This document shows positions 43,492 through 61,663 of a stretch of 64,000 nt of DNA, piece after piece (positions within the stretch are counted from its first letter, which is position 1; each line of letters starts with the position of its first letter). The notes under the pieces were generated by a model. It was not told the DNA's origin. It saw nothing but the letters and a program-made list of their open reading frames with translations, and did not search any database. The translations under genes and the position numbers were made by a program. Origin of the DNA: Halobaculum sp. MBLA0143 (GTDB taxonomy: Archaea > Halobacteriota > Halobacteria > Halobacteriales > Haloferacaceae); contig NZ_JBGKAC010000001.1 in NCBI RefSeq assembly GCF_041361465.1, positions 1,178,001 to 1,242,000 on the forward strand. The letters run 5' to 3'.

Positions 43492-45375
43492 ATGTCGACA
43501 TCACAGAGCCGCCGCCCGACCGTCGCGTGGGCGGCGGCCGGACTACCGTTGGTCGTGACGCTGGGTCAGACACTGATGGCGTTGTTCGGTTACACCTCGG
43601 CGTCGGCTGGCGTGGAGCCGGTCACCGGGCCGTTGTTGTCCGTCCCGGTGTTGTTCGAGGCGGCGGTCGTGTTCAAGGAGTCGTCCGGGGTCGTGATGGC
43701 GTTGTTCCTGTTGATCGCCGTCGCGTGGGCGTCACAGGGGGTGACGATGCACAGACTGGAGCACCGCGAGGCGACGTTCGGCGCCGCCACGCTCGGGAGC
43801 GTGTTGTTCTTCGTGTTGTTCTTCGGCGTGTACGCCCCGTTGTACGGCGGCGGGACGGGCGTCGGCCCGGTCCAGCTCGGACTGTTCTCGCTCGTCCCGA
43901 TCCTGGCGTCCGGTCTGATGGTGTACGCGGCGTCCGACTACCCGTGGGCCGTGACGGTGGACCGCGAGGCCAGCGAGGAGCTCGGGGAGATCGAGGCGTC
44001 GCTGGACGACGCCCAGGCGACGTTCCGGGAGGCGTTCGACCGCCGACTCGACGGGTTCGAGGAGCTGTCGACGACCGCGCCGGAGGCGGTCGACACCGTA
44101 GAGCAGCGCCGGGAGGAGTTCCAGAGTCAGGTGGACGACGCCAGACAGCTGCTCGCCGACTGCCGGTCGATCGACGACCCGGAGCGACGGCGCAGTCGGG
44201 CGGGCGACGCCCGACGGCGCGTCGACGAGCTCCGACCGACCGCGACGGTCGACCGGATCGAGTCCGGCTTCCGCGACCGGCTGACGGACGCCGTCCGGGC
44301 CGCGTTCGGCGACCGGACGGTGGAGTCGGCGTTCGGTAGCCCGTACGAGGTCGTCAACCTCCCGACGCGGTTCCGGGAGTTCGACGTGCCGGGGGTGGAG
44401 GGTGACGTGCACGTCCGCGAGGTAGACCGGGCGTTGATCGACCTGATCGAGTCCGACGCCTCCGTGGCGACGGTGGCGTCGGCCGTCGACGGCGCACACC
44501 GGGAGTTCGACCGACTGGAGCGACACGTCGCCGACCGGGAGACGCCGGTGGTCGAGACGATCCGACAGGCGGAGTCGGATCTGGAGACGGCGGAGTCGGA
44601 GGTGGAACGCGACCGGCTCCCGTTCGCCGACCGGCTGTCGGAGGTGGTCGTCGACGGTCGGACGGAGGCGACGCCCGGCACGCGCGAACTGCGGCGGGAG
44701 CTGCGGCGGGTCCGCGACCGACTCCACGACTGTGAGTTCGACACCGCGGGACGCGAGGCGGACACGGTCGCGACGTCGGCCGACCGGCTCGTCGTGTTCG
44801 TGGAGTTCGCGGGCGCCGTCTGGTCGGCGGTCGACACCCGAGCCAGCGGGAGCAACGTCCCCGAAGAGCTGGACGACGATCTCGTCTCGGTGTTGGCGAC
44901 GGCAGTGGAACGCGCAGACGAGGCCGTCGCCGTCGCTCACGAGGACGACCGGCTCTCGTTCGAGTACGCCGACGTGACGCCGGACGCGGAGTCGACCGAG
45001 GCGTCGGACGAGACGGACGAGACCGACGCGACGGACCCGACAGACGCGGACGGCGGCTCGGAGACGGACAACGTGCAACAGCCGGAGGCGGTGGTCGACG
45101 AGGTGTTGTACGTCCTCCGGGAGCTGTCGACGGCCGCAGAGCGGGGTGAGACGTTCCTCCAGTACAACTTGGACGACCTCCCGTCGTCGATGGCGACGGC
45201 GGACGTGTTGGTCAACACGCGCCGGTTCGTCGACCGACAGACGGACTTGTTCGGCCGGGTAGACCTCCAGAGCCCGGAGCCGCCGGGGTTCTTCGAGCTG
45301 ACGGCCGCCGACGACACGGACGTGGAGACGGCGTTGTCGACGGCCCGCGAACGGTTCCGCGATCGGTACGTCTGA
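43492..45375 (+). CDS. Four-helix membrane protein with long cytoplasmic helical domain
   Basis: A 627-residue protein (MSTSQSRRPTVAWAAAGLPL). Four membrane segments fill the first 150 residues: about 10-32, 45-85 (VVMALFLLIAVAWASQG), 97-115 (GSVLFFVLFFGVYAPLY) and 122-145 (QLGLFSLVPILASGLMV). The remaining 480 residues are acidic and helical, with coiled-coil-like stretches (DDAQATFREAFDRRLDGFEE; DRLERHVADRETPVVETI) and a Thr/Asp/Glu linker at about 500-525. No family recognised. It opens the tubulin-like cluster, 66 bp ahead of the first tubulin-like gene, and could anchor that protein to the membrane (inference from order). Confidence 0.8.
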   Translation: MSTSQSRRPTVAWAAAGLPLVVTLGQTLMALFGYTSASAGVEPVTGPLLSVPVLFEAAVVFKESSGVVMALFLLIAVAWASQGVTMHRLEHREATFGAATLGSVLFFVLFFGVYAPLYGGGTGVGPVQLGLFSLVPILASGLMVYAASDYPWAVTVDREASEELGEIEASLDDAQATFREAFDRRLDGFEELSTTAPEAVDTVEQRREEFQSQVDDARQLLADCRSIDDPERRRSRAGDARRRVDELRPTATVDRIESGFRDRLTDAVRAAFGDRTVESAFGSPYEVVNLPTRFREFDVPGVEGDVHVREVDRALIDLIESDASVATVASAVDGAHREFDRLERHVADRETPVVETIRQAESDLETAESEVERDRLPFADRLSEVVVDGRTEATPGTRELRRELRRVRDRLHDCEFDTAGREADTVATSADRLVVFVEFAGAVWSAVDTRASGSNVPEELDDDLVSVLATAVERADEAVAVAHEDDRLSFEYADVTPDAESTEASDETDETDATDPTDADGGSETDNVQQPEAVVDEVLYVLRELSTAAERGETFLQYNLDDLPSSMATADVLVNTRRFVDRQTDLFGRVDLQSPEPPGFFELTAADDTDVETALSTARERFRDRYV

Positions 45376-45400
45376 CCCTCCCGCGGCCGTCCGGTCGGGG

Positions 45401-45410
45401 GGAAAACTAA
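45401..45410 (+). promoter_or_regulatory. Possible internal promoter before tubulin-like gene 1
   Basis: ggaaaactaa lies 32-41 bases before the ATG at 45442 in a 66-bp gap. It is the only AT-rich run there, so gene 1 may also be transcribed on its own. Confidence 0.35.
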
Positions 45411-45441
45411 GTACCGGAGCGGCGAGGTACTTCACGAACGA

Positions 45442-47043
45442 ATGCCAGACCAGTGCCAGATCTGCCTGACCGGGCCGTCCGAGTGGAACGCGGACGACCT
45501 GGAGGGACACGTCCGTGCGGCCCACGGTGACAACGAGGCGGCCGTCGCGGCGATGTACGGCGACGAGTTCGACCACCTGTTCGAGGAGAACGGCGGCGGG
45601 AGCGGCACCGGCGACTCGCCTCGACAGACGACGCGGGAGACGCCGAAGCCGACCGGCGGCAGCGGCGGCGGTGCCACGGACAGTGTCGGCAAGAAGTGGT
45701 TCATGATCGGTGTCGGCGGCGCTGGCAACAACATCCTGGACGCGCTCCTGATGCGCCGGGACACGCTCGTGGCCGCCGGCGAGGAGCGCGCCCGTATCTG
45801 GGAGGGGGGGCTGGCCGGCTACGGACTGCTGAACACGAACACGGCGGAGTTGGAGCAGACGTACTACGCTCAGGAGGAACAGGGGTACGACCGCGCACAG
45901 CTGGAGACGAACACGATCATCGGACTGGGGGCACACGACAACTCCGGGATGGGTTACCGGTGGCAGAACGGCGCCGCGGTCGCCGAGGTCGACTTCGAGG
46001 GGGAGAACAACCCGTTCCGCGACCGCTGGGACATGCGCCAGACCGACCTCCGGAGCGCACAGGCGTTGTTGCTCGTCCACAGTGTGACGAAGGGGACCGG
46101 CTGCGGGTCGACGCCGGTGTTGGCCGAGCGCATCCGCGACGAGGTGTTGTCGGACGACCGAGAGATCGACAAGGCGATCCTGAGCGCCGTGGTGATCCCG
46201 TCGGTCGGGAGTCAGCAGTCGACGCTGGGTGGACGCGGGAAGACGAACGGGGTCGTCGGGCTCGCCCGGACGGCACAGGCGGTAGACGCACTCATCCCGT
46301 TCAACAACGCCAAGCTCCGAGAGGTGAGCCAGGACATCACGCCGCGGGTCGACGGGCTCGCGCAGTACAACCCGCCGCAGTTCGTCGACCTGAACAAGCC
46401 GCTGGTGGCGTTCCTGGAGGCGTTCACGATGTCGTCGACCCCGCAGTTCGTCGACCAGGACGCCACGATGTCGATCCGCGGCAACGTGTTCGACGTGGCA
46501 GACAGCTTCCGACTGGTCCAGGACAAGTACCCCGCGAGCATGCCGAAAGACGAGCGGCCGGCGGTCGTGTTGGCACCGGTGCTGGGGCGGCTCCGGTCGG
46601 AGACGGTGTCGGAGTCGAAGCTGGAGATTCTCGCCCGGCGGACGCTGGACCAGAACCGGTTCGCCGACTTCGATCCGTCGACGGCCTGGGGGGCCAACTT
46701 CATGCTGTACGGTCCAGAAGAGAAGATGCGCGAGGCGTCGGAGTACGTCACTGACGGTCGACTCCAACGGATCCTCAACGGGCCGGACTTCCTCGACGCC
46801 GGGAACACGGCGGGCGTCGAGACGGTGGACGTGCAGCTCAACCAGCTCGTCACCCCGCAGTTGGACGACCTCTACATGTGGGGGATGCTGTGGAACCCGG
46901 AGATGCCGGCGCTGGAGTCGATGTACGAACACGCACAGCGGCTCAACCAGGAGGGCCAGACGCAACAGGCCGAGAGCGTCAGAGAGGTCTGGAGCGACGT
47001 GGAGGCGTTGTTCTCCTGTCTGGGCCGCGACAACATGCTGTGA
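45442..47043 (+). CDS. Tubulin/FtsZ-superfamily protein 1 with N-terminal zinc finger
   Basis: A 533-residue protein. Residues 5-28 (CQICLTGPSEW...HVRAAH) form a C2H2-like finger with Cys5, Cys8, His23 and His28; a Gly/Thr linker follows. The GTPase-like core from about 84 has loop 1 MIGVGGAGNN (88-97), NTNT (131-134), a Gly-rich loop GLGAHDNSGMG (161-171), a nucleotide loop VTKGTGCGSTP (215-225) in place of GGGTGTG, and IPFNNAKL (285-292), which mirrors the T6 segment. The order fits FtsZ-like proteins (possibly the Tubulin_2/FtsZl group). The T7-like loop PPQFVDLNKP has only one Asp, so hydrolysis may be altered. Not a division FtsZ. Coupled to the next gene by GTGA. Confidence 0.8.
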   Translation: MPDQCQICLTGPSEWNADDLEGHVRAAHGDNEAAVAAMYGDEFDHLFEENGGGSGTGDSPRQTTRETPKPTGGSGGGATDSVGKKWFMIGVGGAGNNILDALLMRRDTLVAAGEERARIWEGGLAGYGLLNTNTAELEQTYYAQEEQGYDRAQLETNTIIGLGAHDNSGMGYRWQNGAAVAEVDFEGENNPFRDRWDMRQTDLRSAQALLLVHSVTKGTGCGSTPVLAERIRDEVLSDDREIDKAILSAVVIPSVGSQQSTLGGRGKTNGVVGLARTAQAVDALIPFNNAKLREVSQDITPRVDGLAQYNPPQFVDLNKPLVAFLEAFTMSSTPQFVDQDATMSIRGNVFDVADSFRLVQDKYPASMPKDERPAVVLAPVLGRLRSETVSESKLEILARRTLDQNRFADFDPSTAWGANFMLYGPEEKMREASEYVTDGRLQRILNGPDFLDAGNTAGVETVDVQLNQLVTPQLDDLYMWGMLWNPEMPALESMYEHAQRLNQEGQTQQAESVREVWSDVEALFSCLGRDNML

Positions 47044-48350
47044 CCGTGACGGGAGAACACGTCAGCGAGGCCGCCGACCGGCTGGGTGTGGAGCCGGAGC
47101 CCGAGGCGGTCGCAGACGAGGTCAGAGAGTGGCACGGAGCGCTGTACCGGATCACCTCGAAGCTCGACTCCGAGGCGACCGGCATCGAGCCGGGCGACTC
47201 CGCCGCAGATCGGTTGTTCGCGCTCCAGAAGGCCGCGGCGGACGGCCGACTGTCCGTCGAGCCGGCGGGAGAAGAGGAGACGGCGGCCGACGCCGAGTCA
47301 CCCTTCGACGAGACCGTCACGGGCGGGGCGGACGCCAGGGGTGCCACGGAGACGGACGCGAGAGGAGACACGACGACGGACGCGAGAGGAGACACGACGA
47401 CGACGGACGCGAGAGGAGACACGACGACGACGGACGCGAGAGGAGACGCGACGACGGACGCGGGGGAGACGACCCCGGCGCAGCCAGACTCGGAGTCGAC
47501 CGGCGGGGGCGAAGCGGACGGTGACGAACCCGTGTCACCGGGCGCGCGAGCGGCGGCCCGGGTGGCGGACGCCCGCGAGCCGTCACAGCGGGTGATCCAG
47601 CAGCTGCTCGACACGCTCCAGGACGGCTCCGTCGCGGGTGTCGAGTTGGCGCTGGAACGGACGGCCGACGCGGTCGCCCGGTCGGCGGCCGTCGGCGCCA
47701 TCGACGACGACGACAGCGATCCGGCGGCTGCACGAGACGCGCTCGGCGACGCACGGGAGGCGCTGGCCGACGTCCCCGACCCGGTCGCGGCGCCGTTCGA
47801 CGAGCGGCTGTCGGAGCTGGCCCGTCAGCTGGAGGCGGCCGCCGACGGGAACCCGGTCGTGCCGTACGCCGTCGGGCGAGAGGCGACGTTCTACGCCGAG
47901 ACGCTCGCCGGGTCGCTGGCGTCGGTGTCCGTCGACGGCGACCGGACCGACGGGACCGCCGACGCGGCGACCGTCGGGGACGCGACGACTCCCGATAATG
48001 CGACAGCTCCAGACGACGCGACATCTCCAGAGGGCGCGACGGCTCCGGACGACGCGACAGCTCCGGACGACGGGGAGGCGGCGGAGACGGTCCAACGGGT
48101 CGCCGACCGGCGGCGCGAGATCACGGAGCGGTTCGTCAACCGCCGAGAGGACCACAGCCACGCCATCCCGTTGTTGTTCCTCTCGACGGCCGACGACCTC
48201 CGGGAGCGCGCGGGCGAGGCGATAGATCGAGGGGAGACTGCCCGGGCGACAGGAGTCGCAGAGGCCGCGCTCGCGTCGTTGGACACGGTGGAGTCACTGT
48301 ACGAGGAGAACCAGTACAGCGTCATGCTACGGCAGCTACGCGGGAGCTAG
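47040..48350 (+). CDS. Acidic helical protein with low-complexity linkers
   Basis: A 436-residue protein from GTG 47040, overlapping the end of tubulin-like gene 1. Helical blocks are at about 1-80 (EAVADEVREWHGALYRIT), 170-310 (SQRVIQQLLDTLQDGSVAG) and 345-436. They are separated by two Thr/Asp/Ala-rich linkers: about 100-165, made of TDARGDTT repeats with matching DNA repeats near 47350-47460, and about 315-345, made of ATAPDDAT-type repeats. No signal peptide or membrane segment was seen. It is probably a cytoplasmic adaptor for the tubulin-like protein (inference from translational coupling). Family unknown. Confidence 0.72.
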   Translation: MTVTGEHVSEAADRLGVEPEPEAVADEVREWHGALYRITSKLDSEATGIEPGDSAADRLFALQKAAADGRLSVEPAGEEETAADAESPFDETVTGGADARGATETDARGDTTTDARGDTTTTDARGDTTTTDARGDATTDAGETTPAQPDSESTGGGEADGDEPVSPGARAAARVADAREPSQRVIQQLLDTLQDGSVAGVELALERTADAVARSAAVGAIDDDDSDPAAARDALGDAREALADVPDPVAAPFDERLSELARQLEAAADGNPVVPYAVGREATFYAETLAGSLASVSVDGDRTDGTADAATVGDATTPDNATAPDDATSPEGATAPDDATAPDDGEAAETVQRVADRRREITERFVNRREDHSHAIPLLFLSTADDLRERAGEAIDRGETARATGVAEAALASLDTVESLYEENQYSVMLRQLRGS

Positions 48351-48427
48351 CCGGGGGCGTGACCCCGACGGAGGACGGCGTTCCCGGCGTGTAGTTCGAC
48401 CGAGTAACGCGGCGGAAGGATACGGTA

Positions 48428-48435
48428 GGTTTAAC
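48428..48435 (+). promoter_or_regulatory. TATA-like box before tubulin-like gene 2
   Basis: ggtttaac lies 32-39 bases before the ATG at 48467, in the largest internal gap (116 bp) of the cluster. It probably starts a second transcript covering 48467 to 61663. Confidence 0.5.
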
Positions 48436-48466
48436 AGACGAACTGCGGACGATACACACAGTACAG

Positions 48467-49630
48467 ATGGCGTATCTCTTTGTCGGAGCGGGGCAGGCCG
48501 GGTGTGCGCTCGTCGACTCCGTCTTCGACCACGAACGTGTGTCGACGTTAGCGACGCCGGTCGCGGTGAACTCCACGGCGAGAGACCTCCAGAACCTCTC
48601 GAACGTGGGGTCAGAGTCGTGGTACGGCATCGCACGCGGAGAGGGCCTCGTCGCGGGCGACACGGCGGGGTTCGAAGAACAGGTTCAGGGCGGCTTCGGT
48701 CGGGAGCCGCGAGAGGCAGACAGTGTGGCGAGCGACCTCGTGGGGCCGATGGCGGACGCGTTCGGCGAGCAGTTCGGCGAAGGGACGCCGTCGTTCGCCT
48801 TCGTCTTCGTCGGGTTGGGCGGCGGCACCGGCTGCGGGATCGGGCCACACGTCGTGGAGGCGATCCGAGAGTTCTCCGGGCCGAGCACGGACGTGATCGC
48901 CGTCGCGGTGTTGCCGAACACGAGCGGCGACGTGACACAGGGCGAAGACGACGCGACGGTGTCGGCGACACGACAGGCGGACAACGCGGTCTACGGACTC
49001 GACCGGCTGGAGTCGGTCGTCGACGGGGTCGTGCTCGTGGACAACCAACGGCTCGCCTTCGAGGACGCCGCCGAGGGCCGGTTCGGGGAGTTCAACGACT
49101 ACGTCGCGGCCGGGGTCGTCGACCTGATCTCCGGGGCGGTGCTCGAACGGATCGACCCCGGCGGGTACGAGTCGTTCGACCCACAGACGATCGACCTACA
49201 GGACATCGTCACGTCGCTGTCGCTGTCGGACGGTGTCGGCTACGCGGCACTCGGTCGGTCGGTCGTCCGGACGCGGTCGCTGGCGGGGTACTTCCTGCCG
49301 TTCGTCGGCAGACAGGCGGTCGACGGCGACACGCTCGCGGATCTGGCGGTGACGAAACGCTCCGTCGCGGACCTGAATCCGAGCCTGGCGGAGAAGGCGA
49401 TCGGGCAGATTCGTGCGCCAGAGCGGTACGTGACGGACAGCGACTACCGGATCGAGGCGTCGGTGATCCGGAGTCGACTCGACAGCTACTGCCCGGAGGT
49501 GAACATGGGACTGATGTTGACGGAACGCAACCTGGCGTCGTTCACGACGCTGCTGACGTTCGAACGCGAGGACATCGATCGAATCGCAGACCTCGAGACG
49601 CTGGCGGCACAGGGGAGGGGGCGAGCGTGA
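48467..49630 (+). CDS. Tubulin/FtsZ-superfamily protein 2, CetZ-like
   Basis: A 387-residue protein. It begins MAYLFVGAGQAGCALVDSVF; the GAGQAGC loop is the tubulin/CetZ loop-1 form rather than the FtsZ GGGGN form. AVNST (33-37), the signature GLGGGTGCGIGP (116-127), AVLPNTSGDVTQGE (about 147-160), VVLVDNQRL (188-196) and EFNDYVAAGVVDL (208-220) follow in superfamily order, as in CetZ proteins that control haloarchaeal cell shape. All glycine loops are intact, so GTP binding is likely. It is shorter than a CetZ1-type protein would suggest for its C-domain, and sequence distance from CetZ looks large. It is coupled to the next gene by GTGA. Confidence 0.85.
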   Translation: MAYLFVGAGQAGCALVDSVFDHERVSTLATPVAVNSTARDLQNLSNVGSESWYGIARGEGLVAGDTAGFEEQVQGGFGREPREADSVASDLVGPMADAFGEQFGEGTPSFAFVFVGLGGGTGCGIGPHVVEAIREFSGPSTDVIAVAVLPNTSGDVTQGEDDATVSATRQADNAVYGLDRLESVVDGVVLVDNQRLAFEDAAEGRFGEFNDYVAAGVVDLISGAVLERIDPGGYESFDPQTIDLQDIVTSLSLSDGVGYAALGRSVVRTRSLAGYFLPFVGRQAVDGDTLADLAVTKRSVADLNPSLAEKAIGQIRAPERYVTDSDYRIEASVIRSRLDSYCPEVNMGLMLTERNLASFTTLLTFEREDIDRIADLETLAAQGRGRA

Positions 49631-49944
49631 GTCGGGCGGTCTCGTGTCTCGTCGCCGTCGCCGTCGTCGCCGTGGCGCTGGCCGGTGTCGGCGGCGTCAC
49701 CGCGCAGGCCGACGACGACGGGACGACCGGGAACGAGACGGCCGGCAACGGGACGACGCAGGCGGCCACGGCGACCCCGTCGCTCGGAGAGCTGTCGACG
49801 GCCGTCGCCGAGCGACGGACGGCCGTCGCGGAGACGAGAGCGAACGGCGGCGCCGTCCAGCCGGCGGTCGTCGGGCTGCTCGCGGGCGTCGGCGGCGGAC
49901 TGCTCGTCGGCACCGTCGTGCGTTACTGGGGGGTGGGGCGGTGA
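49627..49944 (+). CDS. Small secreted/membrane protein
   Basis: A 105-residue protein from GTG 49627. The N-terminal signal peptide is SRAVSCLVAVAVVAVALAGV, with likely cleavage after TAQA. A Thr/Asn/Gly-rich stretch with potential N-glycosylation sites (GNETAGNGT) and a short helix (LGELSTAVAERRTAVAETRA) follow. A C-terminal membrane helix spans about 77-98 (AVVGLLAGVGGGLLVGTVVR) and ends in a few residues. It would be a tiny single-pass surface protein. The four-base overlaps with tubulin-like gene 2 and the next gene argue for co-production. Confidence 0.7.
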   Translation: MSRAVSCLVAVAVVAVALAGVGGVTAQADDDGTTGNETAGNGTTQAATATPSLGELSTAVAERRTAVAETRANGGAVQPAVVGLLAGVGGGLLVGTVVRYWGVGR

Positions 49945-50954
49945 CGCGGCTCCTCGCACTCCTGGTGTGTCTGCTCGCCGTCGTCCCCGGCACCGCCGGG
50001 GCGACGGCGGCGCCGCCGGCGGACTGTTCGGGCGTCCAGAACACGACCGCGGTCGTCACGGACGCCGCGGGCGACCGGGTCACCGGCACGGTCCGGCTGT
50101 ACCCGGGCTCGGAGTTGACGCTGACCGTCTGCAGCGACGGCGACCCAGAGGACTTCGGTCCGGTCTGGGGGCTGGCCGACAGCCCAGTGTACGAGCGGCT
50201 GGACAACACCTCCGAGAGCGTCCGGCTCCGGGTGGTCGCGGCGGGCGCCGGTGAACGTGTCTCCCTCGGCGAGGCGATAGAGCGCCGGGACGCACGTGGG
50301 CCGACGGTGGTAGTGCCGCCGGCGAACACGGTGACGTGGAACGCCACGGACGAGACGTCGGTGACACTCCGGTTCGAGACGGCCAGCCAGAGTGAGGCGT
50401 TCGCGGCCGCGTCGGACCGGCACTCGACCGCCCGGCGGGAACTGAACGGCACCCTGTCGGCGCTGCCGACGAACGCCTCGTCGGACGACGAGTCGGCTTC
50501 CAACGCCAGCCAGGTGGTGACGGCGTTGCGCGAGTACGAGCGCGCGTCGGTGGCGCTCCAGCAGACGGCGTTCGCGGCGACGGCGACGGGTGACGCCGCG
50601 GCGGCCGACACGGTGACGCGCCGGTCGAGTGAACGGCTCACGGCGGCCCGCGACCGGGTCCGCGAGCGGCTGACGGCGTACGAGACCACGTTGGTCGAGC
50701 GCCGTTCGTCCGTCGTGGGGACGAGCCGGCTCGCGTTCGGCGGCGCGCTCGCCGGCGGCGTCGTCGTCGGCGCGGCCGTCGGCGTCTGGTTCGCCGGCCG
50801 CCGTCGCGCGGAGATCGACTTCGACAAGACGTACGACAGCGGGACGACGCTGGACCCGCGTCACGTCGCAGTGCCGCTCGCGGCCGGCGGGCTGTTGTTG
50901 GTGGGCGGGCTCGCGGCTGCGGTCGTCCTCGGCGTCGCGGGGGTGATCGTCTGA
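49941..50954 (+). CDS. Exported protein with two C-terminal membrane helices
   Basis: A 337-residue protein from GTG 49941 with signal peptide TRLLALLVCLLAVVPGTAGA. The extracellular part has a beta-rich region (about 25-150; CSGVQNTTAVVTDAAGDRVT, VRLYPGSELTLTVC, with a Cys pair that may be disulphide-bonded) and several N-x-[ST] sites. A helical region follows at about 150-255. Two C-terminal membrane helices (about 258-280 and 310-335) flank a cytoplasmic loop RRRAEIDFDKTYDSGTTLDP. No family recognised. The loop faces the tubulin-like proteins if topology is as predicted. Confidence 0.72.
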   Translation: MTRLLALLVCLLAVVPGTAGATAAPPADCSGVQNTTAVVTDAAGDRVTGTVRLYPGSELTLTVCSDGDPEDFGPVWGLADSPVYERLDNTSESVRLRVVAAGAGERVSLGEAIERRDARGPTVVVPPANTVTWNATDETSVTLRFETASQSEAFAAASDRHSTARRELNGTLSALPTNASSDDESASNASQVVTALREYERASVALQQTAFAATATGDAAAADTVTRRSSERLTAARDRVRERLTAYETTLVERRSSVVGTSRLAFGGALAGGVVVGAAVGVWFAGRRRAEIDFDKTYDSGTTLDPRHVAVPLAAGGLLLVGGLAAAVVLGVAGVIV

Positions 50955-53035: not shown

Positions 53036-53093
53036 CCCGACGACCCGACAGGGCAACACTGACGGAAGGGGGTTCCCTGGTGGTGAGTAAGTG

Positions 53094-54299
53094 ATGGCAC
53101 GAGCAGACACGTTCACTCGGTGGGGCGTCGTCGCCTCCGGAGAAGGTGGGAATCGCGTCGCCGCGGAGCTGTTGTCCCGCGAGGAGAACACGGGTATCGC
53201 CGAACGAGTGGTGTTGTTGAACACGAACCGCGCGGACATCCGGAACACGGTAGACCAGTCCGACGTGGACGGCGACCTGGACGACTACGTCAGGGTGTTC
53301 GGCGACAAGCGGGGGGTCGGCAACGACTTCCTCGAGGGGGAGCGCCAGACGGAGAGTGACGTACAGGGGATCACCAACGAGATCGACGACCGGATGATCA
53401 ACGCGGACGCCCAGCTGTTCTTGACGACGCTGGGCGGCGGCACGGGCAACGGCTCCGTGCCGTACCTCCTGCGGGAGTACGACGAACAGATCGACGTGGA
53501 GTCGGCGAACTACGGCCCGTGGATCGACGACGCGGTCCGGATCGGCGTCGGGATCTGGCCGTACTACAACGAGCCGTCACAGCGACAGTTCAACGCGATG
53601 CTGGGGCTCTCCCGGCTACTCCGTCGGCGTGACGGCACCCAGAACGCCGACATGACGCTGTTGGCGGGCAACTCCCACCTGGACCGAGACGGCCGCTCGG
53701 AGAGCTACGACCGGGTGAACGAACGGATCGTGGCGGCGTTGGACATGATGATCGGCGCCGGACGGGAGACACAGAGCGTCATCGACGTGGAAGACTACGT
53801 CGCCAAGCCCTCCTCCGTGGGGGCGTACCACTTCACGCCGGCGTTGGCGACGGAGCTCAACGGCAAGATGCTGGAGTACGGGCTGATGTTCGACAAGGCG
53901 GCCGAGAACGCCTACGTCCCGATGGACGTGTCGACCGCCCGGGCGGCGTTCGCGGTCGTCCGCGCGCCAGAACGGATGGTCGAGCGCGGGGAGGTGACCG
54001 CGACGGAAGTCGACCGGGCGTTCGACACCTGGAAGCGGGACAACGGCCTCTCCGGTGCCGTCGGGATGACGACCGTCACGCCGGCCGACCGCCGGGGCAA
54101 CGACGTGGACGTGCTCCTGTTGTTGGGCGGGTTCGATCTGAACCCGTTGCTGGACCACGCGCGCGACAGCTACGAGGGTCACAAGCGGAACCTGGACGCG
54201 GCCAGACAGCTCGGGGGCAACGAGGCGACCATCTCGCAGCGCCACCTGGAGGACCTGGAACGCAACCTGGAGGAGTACGTCGATGCGAACGCGAGGTGA
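53094..54299 (+). CDS. Tubulin/FtsZ-superfamily protein 3
   Basis: A 401-residue protein from ATG 53094 (MARADTFTRWGVVASGEGGN). Superfamily segments are loop 1 ASGEGGNRVA (14-23), LLNTNRADI (41-49), GDKRGVGNDFL (70-80), signature LGGGTGNGSVP (113-123), GIWPYYNEPSQRQFN (153-167), LLAGNSHL (189-196) and YDRVNERIVAALDMMIG (205-221). The last resembles the N-x-x-I helix entry of tubulins. It differs widely from proteins 1 and 2, so the three are not recent duplicates. The C-terminal domain (DVDVLLLLGGFDLNPLLDHA) is shorter than FtsZ's. Followed 6 bp later by a large surface-protein gene. Confidence 0.82.
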   Translation: MARADTFTRWGVVASGEGGNRVAAELLSREENTGIAERVVLLNTNRADIRNTVDQSDVDGDLDDYVRVFGDKRGVGNDFLEGERQTESDVQGITNEIDDRMINADAQLFLTTLGGGTGNGSVPYLLREYDEQIDVESANYGPWIDDAVRIGVGIWPYYNEPSQRQFNAMLGLSRLLRRRDGTQNADMTLLAGNSHLDRDGRSESYDRVNERIVAALDMMIGAGRETQSVIDVEDYVAKPSSVGAYHFTPALATELNGKMLEYGLMFDKAAENAYVPMDVSTARAAFAVVRAPERMVERGEVTATEVDRAFDTWKRDNGLSGAVGMTTVTPADRRGNDVDVLLLLGGFDLNPLLDHARDSYEGHKRNLDAARQLGGNEATISQRHLEDLERNLEEYVDANAR

Positions 54300-54305
54300 C
54301 GACGG

Positions 54306-57167
54306 GTGACGGGGAACCGAACCGCCCTCGTCTGTTGGGTGACGCTGGCGGTCGCGGTCGTGGCGGCCGGCGTGGCCGGCGGGGCCGTCGGGGTCGGCGA
54401 GCCCGACGGTATCGGCGGAGCCGACACTGTCGCCGAAGCCGACGCCGCCGTGACGACTAACCACACGAACGCGACGCTGGAGGACGTCCGGTCGTCGCCG
54501 TCGAGCGGCGCGCTCGTCGTCGAACTGGCGAACGCGAACGGCTCGGTGAACGTGACAGTGGCGACGGTCGACGGTCCCGAGGACACGTACACCAGAACCG
54601 TCGAGGAGAGCGGCGACGTTCGGGTCGTGCGGGTCGCTCCCGGAGTACTCCCGACGGGAGACCTGAGTCCGGCGACAGTGTCGGTGTCGGTCGGCGGGCA
54701 GCAGATCGGCTCCGACCAACTGCCGTTGGACTACGTCGAACTCGACCCGAACACGGCACGGATCCGGCCGAACGGCACGGCGGTGTTCGGCACCAGCACG
54801 TCCGTCGGGACGGACGCCGTCACGCTGCGACTGCTCGGTGACGGCGGCGCAGTGACGACGGCGACAGCGACCCGCAGGAACGGCAGCCTAGTCGTGGGAG
54901 GGGAAGCGGTGGAACAGTACCTCCTCCCGCCCCAGCCGTTCCGGGTCACCGGCCCGGCAGCCAGCGAGACGGTGCCCGTCACCGGAGGCGGAGCGAGCGT
55001 CGACCCCGGGCAGTTGGCCGACCGTGGTAACACGACCGTCACGGCCGGCGACGGGCGGATCACGCTGTCTAGTCCGGCGCTCGTGAACGACGAGACGTAC
55101 ACCGTCACCGTCCACTCTGGCGCGCAGTACACGACCACCACGACCGCCAGCGGCGGCAGCGTCACCGTCGAGAACCCGGCGTTGTTGGAGCTGGCGTCGG
55201 TGAACGTCACGGTGGCGTACGACGGCACGGACGTCGTCTCCGTCGACGACTACCGGATCCACGAGGTGACGACGGCGACCGTCGTGGCGGCGACGGGCAA
55301 CACGACCACGCTGAACCTCACCGAGAGCGCACTGCCGTCGCAGGCGGGGCTGGCCGACGCGAGCGTGATCGGTGCCGAGCGGACGGTGGCGGTCGACGTC
55401 GACCGCACGCCCAGTGGTGACGTGACGCTAGACGGCGTGTCGCTGAACGTGAGCGGCAGCTACCGAGTGCTCCTCCGGACGGCAGACGGCGCCAGCTACC
55501 CGGTCCGAGTCGGTGCGGGCGACGCGCTCGGAGAGATCCAGACGCCGGCTGCGGCCGGCGGCACCGACGGCGGCACCGACGGCGGCGCCGGGCTCGCCGA
55601 CAGCCCGGTCTTACTCGGCGGAGCCGGGGCGGTGTTGGTGTTGGTCATAGTCGGTGCGTTCGCAGTGCTCCAGACGGACGTGCTCGGTGGACCGTCCGGT
55701 GGTGGCCGCGAATCGCGGTCGGAGACGGTCGAAGTCGAGGTACTGGATCCGGACGGGAGTGTCCACGACGGGCCGGTAGAGGTCGTCTACCGAGAGGCCG
55801 GCCCACTCGGCGGGGACGGGTCGAGCGGCCGCCAGCGGAGCCAACCCGGACGGAACGACCCGGCCGGCGGTCGGGGGCGCAAGCAGGACAAGGAGACGAT
55901 CGACGGGCGCAGGACGCTCGAGTTCTTCCCGAAGGAGTGGGAGCTGACCGTCCAAGACCCGTTGTCGATCCGGGGTGGCTCCGTCCGGTTCGACCCGGAG
56001 CGGTCGGACACCGTCACGCTCGATCTCGAGCCCCAGCGGCGGCGGCTCCGCGTCGTCGACGAGGTGGGAGACCCGATCGACGGGGTCGAGGTGGCGGTCG
56101 ACGGTGATCGCCGCCAGACGGACGCGAGCGGGGAAGCGACGTTCCAACGCCCGCCGGGCGAGCGCCGGACCAACGTCCGGACGGACCACCCGGTGTACGA
56201 GGACGCCGACCGGCGACTCCGGTGGGCGAGCGACGGGACGACGGAGCTCGCGTTGGACGTCGACAGCGGCGGACTCGCGGTGACCGCGGCCGTCGACGGC
56301 GAGCCGACGGCCGGGATCGACGTGACTGTGGAACGTGCAGACGGGCGGCCGGTGGCGGACGACCCACGGACCGGCGAGACGGACGGGGACGGGAGCGTCT
56401 CCTTCTCCGGGCTGGTCGTCGGGGAGTACACCGTCACCGCGGACGCCGGCGAGTCGTTCACCACCGACGAGCGAACCGTCTCGGTGGCGGTCGACCGGAC
56501 GGAGCCGGTGGAGCTGTCGGTGTCGTTCCGGTACGAGCTGTCGCCGGACCACGACCGACGGCTGTCGGCGTTGGCGGACGCGGCCGACGAGCTCCGGCCG
56601 TCACAGCAGCTCGACGGTGCCGTCCACCACTACTACGGGACGGTGATCGAGTCGCTGGCAGACGTGATCGGCGGGCTGCCGGACGCCGGTCACCGGTTCG
56701 TCGACGCGCCGGCGGCGCCGGCGGCGGTGACGGCGGCGTTGCTGGACACGGGTGAGGAGTTGCTGGACCTGACGCGGGTCGCGCTGAACGACAAGCGGAA
56801 CGTCGACCTGTTCACCGCCTGTGCGGAGATGCAGTCCGTCCGGACGGGCTGGGCGGACGGGTACGACGAGGCGGCGTTGTTCGAGGCGCTGACGGCGGAG
56901 CCGAACGGCCTGATCCGCGACGTGAGTCGTCGGCTAGAGGAGACGGACGAGTTCCTCCAGAGCCGTCGTGACGAGGTGACGGTCGACTCCCCGGTTCGAG
57001 AGCCGTACGCGGAGGTGGACTCGTACGCCAGGTCGGCGGCGGATCCGGTCCCGCCGTTGGCGTCTGCGGCCGCGCTGTCGTTCGCGGTCGACGGCTACCT
57101 CCGGGCGATCGAAGACGTGTTCGACGAGCCGACGCTCCGGGAACGGCTCGACAGTACGGTGTACTGA
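54306..57167 (+). CDS. Large single-pass surface protein with cytoplasmic beta and helical domains
   Basis: A 953-residue protein from GTG 54306. Signal peptide region LVCWVTLAVAVVAAGVAGGA; an extracellular beta-rich part of about 35-420 with many N-x-[ST] sites; a Gly-rich linker GGTDGGTDGGAG; and a membrane helix at about 432-453 (SPVLLGGAGAVLVLVIVGAF). A cytoplasmic part of 500 residues follows: carboxypeptidase-regulatory-like repeats (RLRVVDEVGDPIDGVEVAVD; DGRPVADDPRTGETDGDGSV) and a helical end domain. Its large cytoplasmic part could meet the tubulin-like proteins. Family unknown. Confidence 0.78.
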   Translation: MTGNRTALVCWVTLAVAVVAAGVAGGAVGVGEPDGIGGADTVAEADAAVTTNHTNATLEDVRSSPSSGALVVELANANGSVNVTVATVDGPEDTYTRTVEESGDVRVVRVAPGVLPTGDLSPATVSVSVGGQQIGSDQLPLDYVELDPNTARIRPNGTAVFGTSTSVGTDAVTLRLLGDGGAVTTATATRRNGSLVVGGEAVEQYLLPPQPFRVTGPAASETVPVTGGGASVDPGQLADRGNTTVTAGDGRITLSSPALVNDETYTVTVHSGAQYTTTTTASGGSVTVENPALLELASVNVTVAYDGTDVVSVDDYRIHEVTTATVVAATGNTTTLNLTESALPSQAGLADASVIGAERTVAVDVDRTPSGDVTLDGVSLNVSGSYRVLLRTADGASYPVRVGAGDALGEIQTPAAAGGTDGGTDGGAGLADSPVLLGGAGAVLVLVIVGAFAVLQTDVLGGPSGGGRESRSETVEVEVLDPDGSVHDGPVEVVYREAGPLGGDGSSGRQRSQPGRNDPAGGRGRKQDKETIDGRRTLEFFPKEWELTVQDPLSIRGGSVRFDPERSDTVTLDLEPQRRRLRVVDEVGDPIDGVEVAVDGDRRQTDASGEATFQRPPGERRTNVRTDHPVYEDADRRLRWASDGTTELALDVDSGGLAVTAAVDGEPTAGIDVTVERADGRPVADDPRTGETDGDGSVSFSGLVVGEYTVTADAGESFTTDERTVSVAVDRTEPVELSVSFRYELSPDHDRRLSALADAADELRPSQQLDGAVHHYYGTVIESLADVIGGLPDAGHRFVDAPAAPAAVTAALLDTGEELLDLTRVALNDKRNVDLFTACAEMQSVRTGWADGYDEAALFEALTAEPNGLIRDVSRRLEETDEFLQSRRDEVTVDSPVREPYAEVDSYARSAADPVPPLASAAALSFAVDGYLRAIEDVFDEPTLRERLDSTVY

Positions 57168-57191
57168 CAGCCTGCAGAGAGAGAACGACAG

Positions 57192-58271
57192 ATGCCGAGA
57201 GGACACACACGACACACGACGCTGGTGGTCGCCGTGACCGTGGCCGTCGTCGTGGCCGGCTGGGCGCCGGTCGCGGCCGGGGCGCGGCCGACCGCCGAGG
57301 GAACGGGGGGACAGATAGACACAGTGACCGCCACGGACACGCCGAACCACGCGGCGACGACCGCACCGCCGACGACGGCCAACGGCTACCTGGCTGCGTT
57401 CCGGAACCTCTCGGACGATCCGGCGTTGTCGACGTACGGCGAACTGGAGGTGTTGCGGAGCCGGGCGGTGGCGGCCGTCCAGGTCGGGTCGTTCGACGAC
57501 GCCCGGAGCCGTCGGATGCGGGGTGTGCTCGCGGTGTTGCAGAACTTCTCTGCGGCCTACGAGTCGGCGACCGCGGGCGACCGAGAGGAGAGCCTGACGC
57601 GGGCGAACGACACGGCGCGGGCGTTGGACCGGCTCCGGACTGCCGGCGGCCGAGACTACGCGGCGCTGGCGCAGTTGGCGTTAGACCGGTTCTACCGCGA
57701 CCGCGGGGACAGGCTCCGTACGGAGGCGCGGACGGCAGAGCGCACGCCGACACAGCTCCAGTTGTTCCGGCTGGCCGTCCGAGCCTACCAACGAGGCGGG
57801 GCGACCGACCGGTTCTCCTCCACGTCGGCGAACCTGGAACGGCTGTCGGCGGAGTACGAGACGGACCTGTCGTTGTTGAACCGGTCGGTGACGACGGCGG
57901 CGGCGTTCCGGTCGTCGTGTGACGACCGGTGTAGTGACCCGCAGACGGCGGTTCGGGCGTTCGGACTCGACGTGTTCGACCGGTACGTGGAGGCACGTGC
58001 GGCAGTGTCGGGCGCCCGGCAGGCGGCGTCGCTGTCGTCCGAACACCAGCTGACGGCCCGGCTGGAACGGGCCCGTGGCTTGGAGGAGTGGGGCGTCGGG
58101 ACGCTGCGGGCGCTGACGATCGCCTCGGTGGCGCTGATCGGCGGCTACACCCTCCTGTTCGCGTTGTTCGGGGCGGTCGTGATGGCCAGACTCTCCCGGT
58201 GGGGACAGGACGCGAAGGACGCGACACTGGGTGACATCCTCCCGCGGGAGCCCCTGGAGGTGGAACGGTGA
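57192..58271 (+). CDS. Single-pass surface protein with LGD-type tail
   Basis: A 359-residue protein. Signal peptide GHTRHTTLVVAVTVAVVVAG; extracellular helical domain of about 55-305 (ARALDRLRTAGGRDYAALAQ; RTPTQLQLFRLAVRAYQRGG); a Cys pair in SSCDDRCSDP; a membrane helix at about 306-330 (IASVALIGGYTLLFALFGAV); and a short cytoplasmic tail ending TLGDILPREPLEVER. The tail resembles that of the next gene's product. The helical ectodomain may pack against its partner. No family recognised. Its stop overlaps the next GTG by four bases. Confidence 0.76.
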   Translation: MPRGHTRHTTLVVAVTVAVVVAGWAPVAAGARPTAEGTGGQIDTVTATDTPNHAATTAPPTTANGYLAAFRNLSDDPALSTYGELEVLRSRAVAAVQVGSFDDARSRRMRGVLAVLQNFSAAYESATAGDREESLTRANDTARALDRLRTAGGRDYAALAQLALDRFYRDRGDRLRTEARTAERTPTQLQLFRLAVRAYQRGGATDRFSSTSANLERLSAEYETDLSLLNRSVTTAAAFRSSCDDRCSDPQTAVRAFGLDVFDRYVEARAAVSGARQAASLSSEHQLTARLERARGLEEWGVGTLRALTIASVALIGGYTLLFALFGAVVMARLSRWGQDAKDATLGDILPREPLEVER

Positions 58272-61200
58272 CCCGTCGACTTCCGGTCGTTCTGGCGGTG
58301 GCGACGTTGGTCGTCTGTGCGGCCGTCGCCGGGCCCGCGAGCGCTGCCGGGACGGACGTCCAGTTGCAGGCGGCGACCGACGAGGACGCCACCGCGAGTC
58401 TCGGAGTTACGTTCACGACGAGCGGCAACGGCACCGTCTCCGTGCCGAGCCAACTGAACGACGGCCCGGCCCAGTTCGTCTTCCAGGAGTGGGAACGCGT
58501 CGACGGGCAGGACGGCGGCAGCAGTAGCGAGTGGGAGGCAGAACCCGGCGTCGAGTACCGCGTCGAGTACGACGTGATCGTCGACGGGGACGCGGAGGAG
58601 GGGGTCTACGGCGAGACGCTCGACGTTCGCCGCGAGGGGAGCGTGGTGGACGACGAGCAGTTGACCGTGGACGTGACCGTGCAGGAGCCGTCGTTCGCCG
58701 ATCCCGGTTTCGTCTCCGACACGGTGGCGGTCGACGCCACCAGACAGGAGCCACAGGCGGTGAGCGTCGAGGTGCCGATCGAGAACCGCGGCTCGGGCGT
58801 GATGCTCGTCGACTCCGTGGGTGCCCGCGACCTCCCGGCGGGATTCTCCGTCTCCGGCGGGAGCGTCGACGCACAGAAGCTGGTCGCCGGCGCGGAGACG
58901 ACCGGGGAGATCGATCTCACGGTCGCGTCCGGCGTGGAGCCGGGGGAGTACGAGATCACGGCGGTCGTCGAGGACAACCTGGGTAACACGCAGATGTTCC
59001 CGGTGACGGTGACTGTCGAAGAGCTACTCCCGGAGTTCGGGGAGGTGACCGGCACCGGGCTGTCGGTCAACGTCGACCGGGTCGGCGACGGGGAGGCGAC
59101 GGCCAACGGGATCGTCAGAGTGCAGAACGTCGGTCCCGGGACGATGCGATTGGAGGCGTTCCGGATCGACGACACGCCACAGGGGATCACCGCCGAGGCC
59201 GACACGGTCGACGATCCGATCGACCCGCGGTCGAACGCTCAGGTCCCCTACACCATCTCCGTCTCCCGCGACATCCGGTCGGGGACGTACAGGCTCGACG
59301 GCTTCGTCGAAGGAGTGGCCGCCGGTAGCCGCAACTTCGAGGCCACGGTGGACGTCGACGTGTTGTTCCCGTCGCTCGGGAACGTGCCGGAGCAGTCCGG
59401 CACCGTCCAGTTCGACCGCGCGGCCCAGGAGTCGGCGACGGTGTCGTTCGACACGCCGGTGCCGAACACCGGTGCCGGCAACATGCGTCTGTCGGCGGTG
59501 GGGTTCTCGAACGTTCCCGCCGGAATGGAGGTCGTCGACGCGAGCGTCGGTGGGACCGTCGTCGAGCCGGACAGACAGGGGACGGCCGAGTTCACCGTCC
59601 GGGTAGACGAGAGCGTCGAGAAAGGGACCTACCAGTTCCAGGCGACCGTCGAGGAGAGCCTGGGCAACACCGAGTCGTTCCCGGTGACGGTGTCCGTGGA
59701 GAAGCCGCCGATCCTCGACGTCGGCGGCGAGACGGTGTCACTGGGTGACGTGCTCGTCGGCCAACGGTCGGAGACGACGCTGTCGCTCGCCGAAGTCGGC
59801 GACGCGACCGGGATCGACGGGGTCCAAGCGACCGTCCAGTCGTCCCCGGGCAACGGGTCACTGTCGCTCGACGCCGTCCGGAACACGCAGTTGCCGGCCG
59901 GCGGGGAGACGGACCGAACCGTCCCGGTGACGGTGGCAGACGGGGCGCCACAACACGAGACCCTCCGGTGGACCGTGACCACACAGCCGAACGACGAACG
60001 GTCTCGGAGCCGCCAGGTGACACTCACCGCACGCGTGATCTACCCGCCGGAGCTGACGAACGTCTCCGCGACCCCAGAGTCGTTCGGCTTCGACCGGGCG
60101 CGGCCCACCTCGGACTACGAGCAGACGTCGACGCTGACACTCGGCAACGCGGGCGACCTGCCGATGACCGTGACGAGCGTGTCCGCGAGCGTCGACGGGC
60201 CGGCGTCGCTGTCGGCGACGGCCGTCGACGTGCCGGAGACGGTCGAGGGGCTGACTACGGAGGAGGTCGACGTCGCTCTGACGGCCGCCCCGTCGACGCC
60301 GGAGGGTGAGTACACGTTCACCGTCCAGGTGGAGACGGCCGACGCCGGCAGCCGGACGCTCACCCGGACGGTGACGGTCCGTCACGAGACGGAACTGTCG
60401 GTGGAGACGGGGTCCGTCACGTTCGGCGAGCTGACGATCACGAGCGAGCGGACCCGCGCCGTCGACGTGGCCGAGGAGCTGGGCTACCAGGACCTGGAGA
60501 ACTTCACCGTGACGCGCGTCGACGGTCCAGAGCAGTTCCTGGCGGTGACGAGCAGACCGGGGTCGGTGTTGCCTGCCGGTGAGTCCGACCAGATCGTGTT
60601 CGCGCTCCGATTCGGGACGAGCGCCCGCGTGTACGAGGACTACGAGTGGACCTACCGGATCGACGGCGAGCGGGCCGACCCCCGAACGGTGACGGTGACG
60701 GCGCGCCCGAGCCCGTACTCGTTCGACAGTCTGCGGCAGAACCTCACTGCGGTCGCGGACGGCGGCGAGTGGCGCGAGCCGTTGGCCGGCGGTGTCGTCT
60801 CGACGCTGGACCGGCTGGAACGACAGCTCCGCGAGGAGGAGTCCGTCGGCCGCGACACGCTCCCGACGGCACTGGCGATGGGGCGGGCGGCGTTGCTGTA
60901 CGCCGACGCCGTCGACGGCGCACAGACGGCCCAAGCGGACGGCAACTACAGTCTCGCACAGCGGCGGGTGGTCCGGGCGGCCGTCGCCCGTGACCAGCTC
61001 GTCCAGTTCGCCGGCAGTCTCCCCGGCCGACTCCGGGAGACGGCGAGCCCGACCGTCGACGTGGCCAACCGGACGCTGTCGGACGTCGTCGCCAACCAAC
61101 GGTCACACTACCGTGGCCTGGTCGGCGAGGACGCCAACTTCGACGAGCGCGCCCGGGCCAGACGGGCGCTGGCGCAGTTGGCCGCCATCGAGGGCGACCG

Positions 61201-61663
61201 GGCGGCCGAGCGTCGCAACCGACGGGCGACCCGCAACGCGACGGAGTCGTACCTCCAACGGGTGTCTGCGGCCTCACAGCACCGCGCGACCGCAGACGCC
61301 GCGTGGCGCGGGCTCACCGACAACGCGACCGTCGTCGTCGCCGGGCAGCCGCTCGTGTTGAACCCCGCGCGGTTCGACGCGACGACGGCGCGGCTGGACG
61401 AGGTCGACACGGCGTACGCGCAGGCCGTCGACGACTACGGCGCTGCCGGTGCGACCGCCGAGGCCGACACGGTCGCCGACCGACGGTCGACCGTCGCCGG
61501 CCAGGCGACTATCGTCCGGTACGGCCTCTACGGCGCCCTCGGCGCGTACGCGCTCGTGTTCCTGGGGCTCGTCTGGTACGTCGCGCGACGCGCGCTCCAG
61601 TACTACAGCGAGTCGAACGAGGCGGCGCTGGGGGACTTCCTCCTGGATCAGCCGGTGTCGTGA
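58268..61663 (+). CDS. Large Ig-like repeat surface protein with LGD-type tail
   Basis: An 1131-residue protein from GTG 58268. Signal peptide TRRLPVVLAVATLVVCAAVA; then about seven beta-sandwich repeats through about residue 815 (NEW3/CARDB-like phrases such as NLGNTQMFPVTVTVEE, SLGNTESFPVTVSVEKP and FGELTITSERTRAVDV). A helical stalk lies at about 820-1075 (LPTALAMGRAALLYADAVDG), a membrane helix at about 1080-1102 (YGLYGALGAYALVFLGLVWY), and a tail ending EAALGDFLLDQPVS. It is a single-pass extracellular protein with many N-x-[ST] sites. Last gene of the cluster. It could form the surface arm of the system. Confidence 0.8.
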   Translation: MTRRLPVVLAVATLVVCAAVAGPASAAGTDVQLQAATDEDATASLGVTFTTSGNGTVSVPSQLNDGPAQFVFQEWERVDGQDGGSSSEWEAEPGVEYRVEYDVIVDGDAEEGVYGETLDVRREGSVVDDEQLTVDVTVQEPSFADPGFVSDTVAVDATRQEPQAVSVEVPIENRGSGVMLVDSVGARDLPAGFSVSGGSVDAQKLVAGAETTGEIDLTVASGVEPGEYEITAVVEDNLGNTQMFPVTVTVEELLPEFGEVTGTGLSVNVDRVGDGEATANGIVRVQNVGPGTMRLEAFRIDDTPQGITAEADTVDDPIDPRSNAQVPYTISVSRDIRSGTYRLDGFVEGVAAGSRNFEATVDVDVLFPSLGNVPEQSGTVQFDRAAQESATVSFDTPVPNTGAGNMRLSAVGFSNVPAGMEVVDASVGGTVVEPDRQGTAEFTVRVDESVEKGTYQFQATVEESLGNTESFPVTVSVEKPPILDVGGETVSLGDVLVGQRSETTLSLAEVGDATGIDGVQATVQSSPGNGSLSLDAVRNTQLPAGGETDRTVPVTVADGAPQHETLRWTVTTQPNDERSRSRQVTLTARVIYPPELTNVSATPESFGFDRARPTSDYEQTSTLTLGNAGDLPMTVTSVSASVDGPASLSATAVDVPETVEGLTTEEVDVALTAAPSTPEGEYTFTVQVETADAGSRTLTRTVTVRHETELSVETGSVTFGELTITSERTRAVDVAEELGYQDLENFTVTRVDGPEQFLAVTSRPGSVLPAGESDQIVFALRFGTSARVYEDYEWTYRIDGERADPRTVTVTARPSPYSFDSLRQNLTAVADGGEWREPLAGGVVSTLDRLERQLREEESVGRDTLPTALAMGRAALLYADAVDGAQTAQADGNYSLAQRRVVRAAVARDQLVQFAGSLPGRLRETASPTVDVANRTLSDVVANQRSHYRGLVGEDANFDERARARRALAQLAAIEGDRAAERRNRRATRNATESYLQRVSAASQHRATADAAWRGLTDNATVVVAGQPLVLNPARFDATTARLDEVDTAYAQAVDDYGAAGATAEADTVADRRSTVAGQATIVRYGLYGALGAYALVFLGLVWYVARRALQYYSESNEAALGDFLLDQPVS

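Follow-up and report, generated by a model that had tools for sequence, protein, structure and literature searches.

An operon coding for three divergent tubulin-family proteins and their membrane and surface partners in Halobacteria: a candidate envelope-coupled cytoskeletal system

What would an archaeal cell do with three divergent tubulin-family proteins encoded together with a set of membrane and surface proteins? The question is raised by a locus of Halobaculum sp. MBLA0143, which lies in a 64,000-nucleotide stretch of its genome (the window). Here eleven genes, termed A to K, all occupy the + strand between positions 43492 and 61663 with several neighbors sharing 1-4 bases, just as an earlier note, made from the sequence, had described them. 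Upstream of A is a branched-chain amino-acid-type ABC transporter, which we judge from its sequence to be outside the gene set. Gene A (43492-45375) codes for a 627 aa protein, first described as a four-helix membrane protein; it is indeed a membrane protein, but its N-terminal membrane domain has four to five hydrophobic segments and is followed by a long cytoplasmic coiled coil. The product of C (47040-48350) is an acidic cytoplasmic protein that is largely low-complexity and helical, with a conserved C-terminal segment. Gene E (49627-49944), which overlaps D by four bases, specifies a 105 aa protein with an N-terminal hydrophobic segment, a short linker and a glycine-rich C-terminal transmembrane segment (TM), and F (49941-50954) one with a signal peptide, a short β plus helical ectodomain and two C-terminal TMs. 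A Pfam scan of ten operon proteins (all but E) found no catalytic family over cut-off besides the tubulins.

The three tubulin/FtsZ-family GTPases are encoded by B (45442-47043), D (48467-49630) and H (53094-54299), and the claim that these are divergent members of the tubulin superfamily is borne out by the Pfam Tubulin profile (PF00091). All three exceed its gathering score of 33 (B, 44.7 bits, 2.3e-11; D, 47.4 bits, 3.5e-12; H, 37.8 bits, 3.2e-9), and the profile also matches each of their aligned orthologs with E <= 0.001 (B 25/25, D 26/26, H 26/26). They are the most divergent three among the nine PF00091 proteins of their own genome, with the remaining six scoring higher. The loop-1 forms (GVGGAGNN, GAGQAGC and ASGEGGN) and signature forms (KGTGCGS, GGGTGCG and GGGTGNG) quoted earlier are present in the sequence, and the motifs can be placed in B (T1 90-96, T4 217-222, T6 near 289, T7 349-356), D (T1 7-12, T4 118-124, T6 193, T7 242-248) and H (T1 14-20, T4 114-120, T6 193, T7 229-236). 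Within each of the three families the T1, T4 and T6 residues and both T7 DxxD aspartates are near-invariant. B bears, in addition, a C2H2-type zinc-finger-like motif at its N-terminus. A segment of B, VDLNKPLVAF, was considered as a β-tubulin-like T7 with a basic residue and rejected, as it falls in helix H7 by profile alignment as well as in the model; the actual T7 reads VFDVADSF, and neither of its aspartates varies.

Structure prediction had been proposed as a check on the fold and was applied to B, the most divergent of the three, for which an AF2 model built with 25 orthologs shows the whole tubulin/FtsZ fold (pLDDT 70, with low confidence in the T7 loop region). The best matches of this model in the PDB (Foldseek) are Methanocaldococcus jannaschii FtsZ, CetZ, OdinTubulin and γ-tubulin, with E about 1e-13 and alignments of 400-530 columns that include the C-terminal domain. 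B is thus modeled as a complete fold, with helix H7 and the C-terminal α/β domain. The profiles of D and H match, by sequence, the structures of CetZ, FtsZ, RepX and TubZ; the best PDB sequence match of H is CetZ (4b45, 4b46), which is also among the best for D. In a quick maximum-likelihood tree, B, D and H fall into three clades of their own, on long stems and apart from FtsZ1, FtsZ2 and CetZ (SH-aLRT 100, 100 and 99, respectively); given the quick search and long branches, we place no weight on how the clades are ordered. The genome of the window encodes a further divergent tubulin-family protein of 471 aa (L005, G000:C1:2282134-2285595), whose very long branch lies near FtsZ1/FtsZ2. An apparent loss of T1 in D of Haloarchaeobius proved to be a start-site error; these proteins (L052, L077, L078) have instead extra N-terminal sequence inserted between T1 and T4, in frames of about 500-513 aa.

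A survey of 391 Halobacteria genomes for B, D and H recovered the orthologs of H as a sharp group in 40 genomes (43-100% identity, E below 1e-80, with the next match at 1e-18), and D is present in exactly the same 40. The Fisher p for this co-occurrence is 1e-55, which overstates independence, as the genomes share ancestry. B is found in 38 of the 40, and a B-like protein occurs without D or H in two further haloarchaeal genomes (L180, L181). The locus is not a chance assemblage, because gene order from A to K and strand recur in all 39 orthologous haloarchaeal loci, two of which are without A, B and C; the set is kept together. Over these loci, A has orthologs in 37/39 and C in 36/39, the layout of E after D is kept in 36, and F has a tblastn match in 24, while its profile reaches most of the named haloarchaeal loci. 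The carriers include Halobaculum, Halopenitus, Halorussus, Haloarchaeobius, Halorubrum, Natrinema, Halomicroarcula, Natronomonas, Halobellus and Haloquadratum. In RefSeq, "cell division protein FtsZ" is the label of both B and D, and almost every other product is a "hypothetical protein". About 90% of the Halobacteria searched lack the operon, which is therefore not a general shape machine.

Is the system confined to Halobacteria? When genome contigs were searched with H, relatives of 30-35% identity over almost the entire protein emerged in Methanoperedens, ANME-2, Hydrothermarchaeota, Altarchaeum, Micrarchaeota and unassigned Euryarchaeota. All 11 non-halobacterial genomes sampled have D and H together, mostly beside homologs of G, I, J and K; many of these loci are arranged as D-G-H with divergent J-K and with I, and in Methanoperedens D is separated from G by an E-like ORF, of 126 aa, and an F-like one. 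D and H lie apart from each other in ANME-2 and Altarchaeum, where no surface genes were seen next to H. B was found in none of the 11, where its weak matches are D itself or another tubulin-family gene; among the genomes searched, only Halobacteria had the A-B-C block. The picture of a three-tubulin system hence holds in Halobacteria, but the core, as far as the sequences tell, is the pair of tubulins D and H, and the haloarchaeal setting is only part of its range. The quick tree places the deep archaeal proteins, which span several phyla, inside the D and H clades; because these lineages have both genes, co-present in 11/11 genomes and nested within the clades, the pair is older than Halobacteria. 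Two further observations concern these genomes. Hydrothermarchaeota possess, apart from D and H, another cluster in which three tubulin-family genes stand in tandem (G393:C36:2938-6451; G394:C9:948675-953107; G401:C54:8360-11872), and in the ANME-2 loci L103, L104 and L109, a conserved, divergently transcribed gene for a protein of 475-478 aa (M(A/T)DEFPFELSPMFEGER...) adjoins H.

Within Halobacteria the copies of Halorubrum and Haloquadratum look transferred. The Halorubrum copies are far nearer to the Natrialbaceae-type (Natrinema, Halobiforma) than to those of other members of the window's family, the Haloquadratum copies are nearer to Halomicroarcula, and the affinities agree across B, D, G, H and J. 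The operon hence seems to move between families as one unit, which is what a self-contained function would predict. Halobacterium salinarum R1 (OE_RS12075 to OE_RS12025) and a Natrinema sp. carry it on plasmids as exactly eleven annotated genes, and it is also plasmid-borne in Halobaculum; the Halobaculum halobium plasmid NZ_CP126159.1 has two whole copies (L040, L041), one with split B and D. Such transfer, together with the patchy distribution and the plasmid locations, would fit a defense or mobile-element module or a TubZ-like plasmid segregation system. Nevertheless, we regard this as highly improbable: there is no PADLOC match, many genomes carry the operon on chromosome-sized contigs, no DNA-binding partner is recognized among proteins that are mostly membrane or surface-associated, and D and H are ancient.

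What, then, do these partners offer? The Ig-like and helical surface proteins with which the earlier note associated the tubulins are recognizable in the domain features of G, I, J and K. G (50954-53035) has two N-terminal TMs, a long cytoplasmic helical rod, an Ig-like (CarboxypepD_reg-type) domain and a C-terminal helical domain. Its AF2 model (pLDDT 87.6) displays the TM hairpin, rod, Ig-like domain and helical domain, and it is conserved as far as Hydrothermarchaeota and Micrarchaeota; searches for structural relatives (Foldseek, VIA) returned just Ig-domain and helical-bundle matches of middling score, none of them clear beyond the Ig domain. I (54306-57167) combines a signal peptide, an Ig-like ectodomain and a TM near residue 437 with a cytoplasmic CarboxypepD_reg plus helical module. 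J (57192-58271) has a signal peptide, a helical ectodomain, a TM and a short cytoplasmic tail with LGDIL; K (58268-61663) has a signal peptide, Ig-like repeats, a helical ectodomain, a TM and a short cytoplasmic tail with LGDFL. The homology of J to the C-terminal third of K (hhalign probability 97.8%, E 1e-12) takes in the TM and the tail as well as the ectodomain. Of the K tails, 48/53 have a strict G[DNE]x[LVI]-type motif, as have 19/53 of the J tails, compared with about 2 in shuffled tails; the haloarchaeal J tails are mostly looser, e.g., GSVV or GQIV. In different phyla, the cytoplasmic module of I is found beneath differing ectodomains, Ig-like in the window and a β-propeller in Hydrothermarchaeota. 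Methanoperedens has paralogs of the module, one without an ectodomain and another with an S-layer (PF07752) ectodomain, whose gene adjoins the operon. A 34-genome family search found the full-length S-layer/I-module joining in one Methanoperedens genome only, so that it is suggestive and does not appear to be general. As the ectodomains differ (Ig-like, β-propeller, S-layer), the outer target may not be constant. Variable ectodomains with Ig-like and β-propeller folds would also suit an apparatus for contact, adhesion or cell-cell interaction, in which a filament positions or retracts surface adhesins, and a patchily distributed unit transferred between families is in keeping with it. Yet no pilin or toxin domain exceeds its curated cut-off in the ten operon proteins of the window that were scanned, and the ancient core and conserved J/K tails suit a structural role equally; we consider this alternative quite unlikely.

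The gene set had been taken to consist of eleven genes, which it does, but the haloarchaeal set runs past position 61663 into two further genes. L (61742-64000 on the - strand, cut by the window end; 904 aa in the genome) codes for a β-propeller/CARDB protein and is convergent with the operon, as it is in 9/10 downstream haloarchaeal regions and both plasmid records; its annotated homolog in Halobacterium salinarum is OE_RS12020. Adjoining it outside the window is M (L188:4453-6027, minus strand), an AAA+ gene that is beside the β-propeller gene in 8/10 downstream regions and both plasmid records; the loci from outside the haloarchaea yielded no such gene. Structures matched by the AAA+ product are those of Cdc48/p97 (E about 1e-45), and its best NCBIfam scores are with CDC48 and CdvC, both well below the cut-offs. 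The LGDLL end of the Halobacterium AAA+ protein was considered as a J/K-like tail and set aside, as it is not kept in the orthologs. The convergent pair is probably part of the haloarchaeal version of the system. A neighbor scoring best with CDC48 and CdvC, the many TM and secreted components and the prediction that FtsZl1 operons remodel membranes (PMC2875224) could all be accommodated by a machine for membrane remodeling, vesicle formation or secretion, with the tubulins bending or constricting the membrane and the surface proteins forming the outer part. We hold this to be unlikely, if less so than the adhesion apparatus: the ten operon proteins scanned are without any vWA, kinase, P-loop GTPase or OmpA-type Pfam match, and in Haloferax a vesiculating GTPase system, ArvA, is known (PMC10927574). 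The same study found vesicle production to be unchanged in Haloferax CetZ knock-outs (PMC10927574).

Taken as a whole, the locus is, we are inclined to think, by some way short of certainty, an envelope-coupled tubulin-family cytoskeletal machine. D and H, joined by B in Halobacteria, would assemble into GTP-dependent polymers on the inner face of the membrane, and D and H probably co-assemble, because they always occur together. The polymers might be tethered through G, with its TM hairpin and cytoplasmic rod, and A as adaptors, through the short G[D/N]xL-type tails of J and K, and through the large cytoplasmic module of I. The ectodomains of I, J and K would touch the S-layer or surface, and therefore growth or disassembly of the polymers would shape or remodel the envelope locally; the Cdc48/CdvC-type AAA+ ATPase neighboring most haloarchaeal loci may dismantle the assembly. 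We argue for envelope-tethered polymers because the GTP and T7 motifs are retained, the pairing of D and H is strict and the partners are membrane-borne. Observed are the gene content, the fold and motifs, the gene order, the co-occurrence, the age of the core, the tail motif and the homology of J with K; polymerization, hetero-assembly, tail docking, S-layer contact, the AAA+ role and the cellular function we infer. More tentatively, and perhaps only as a possibility, the system might be an ancient paired-tubulin heteropolymer linked across the membrane to the S-layer, to which haloarchaea added an AAA+ remodeler and a third tubulin; if true, this would be a tubulin-based linkage of cytoskeleton to surface. 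The observation made in the earlier note is confirmed, and neither of the outcomes that it named as refuting has appeared, as B, the protein modeled, has a tubulin/FtsZ fold and the genes stay together. Its interpretation is partly supported, namely for the three different tubulin-superfamily proteins, the single conserved gene set and the accompanying surface proteins; the multiple filaments or hetero-polymer that it proposed would go beyond this.

In the literature examined here, the archaeal cytoskeletal repertoire has so far consisted of FtsZ, CetZ, artubulins and a few orphans. The operon extends it by three further families of the tubulin superfamily, of which two are ancient and occur strictly as a pair. 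How archaea link the cytoskeleton to the S-layer could be approached through this system, and D and H are an independent pair for studying whether tubulin heterodimers arose more than once. Its presence on a plasmid of the laboratory strain Halobacterium salinarum R1 makes it directly testable.

The earlier note knew of no such locus having been characterized, and we found no description of one in the open-access literature, the scope of our search, beyond which lie most subscription papers and bioRxiv-only preprints. The nearest published idea is the membrane-remodeling prediction of Makarova and Koonin (2010) for FtsZl1/Tubulin_2 (PF13809; PMC2875224), which shares with the present operon a divergent tubulin-superfamily protein, an operon with membrane proteins and a predicted action at the membrane. 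In those systems a single FtsZ-like protein that ends in a coiled coil is accompanied by vWA, kinase, GTPase and OmpA partners (PMC2875224), whereas the operon here has two or three tubulins, which are compact and keep the T7 motif, and surface proteins with Ig domains, TMs and tails. In the window, D scores 17.3 bits with PF13809 against a cut-off of 27 and B and H have no match; by the E-value criterion only (E <= 0.001), the profile matches 10/26 D and 2/25 B orthologs. Because D of the window falls below the cut-off and vWA, kinase, P-loop GTPase and OmpA partners were not found in the ten proteins scanned, the operon is, on its domain content, not an FtsZl1/Tubulin_2 system.

CetZ and the archaeal FtsZ1/FtsZ2 act at the envelope or the division site. 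B, D and H share with them the tubulin superfamily fold but form their own clades and have different gene partners, and their own genome keeps separate FtsZ/CetZ-type copies alongside them. "Halo.Tub" and other non-canonical archaeal tubulin-superfamily proteins have also been reported, with Halobacterota tubulin-like paralogs that are quasi-tandem, lie beside coiled-coil genes and are patchily distributed (PMC9871819, PMC9856176). Compared by description only, the sections of these papers that we covered do not describe the operon, its partner genes, the pairing of D and H or its deep conservation, and part of the present locus may have been seen earlier, without description, among the paralogs of PMC9871819. 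Finally, the obligate co-occurrence of two different tubulin-family proteins recalls α/β tubulin, BtubA/B and the FtsZ1/FtsZ2 pair; unlike in these, B, D and H each keep their own T7 DxxD, and the pairing seen here is one of gene co-occurrence.
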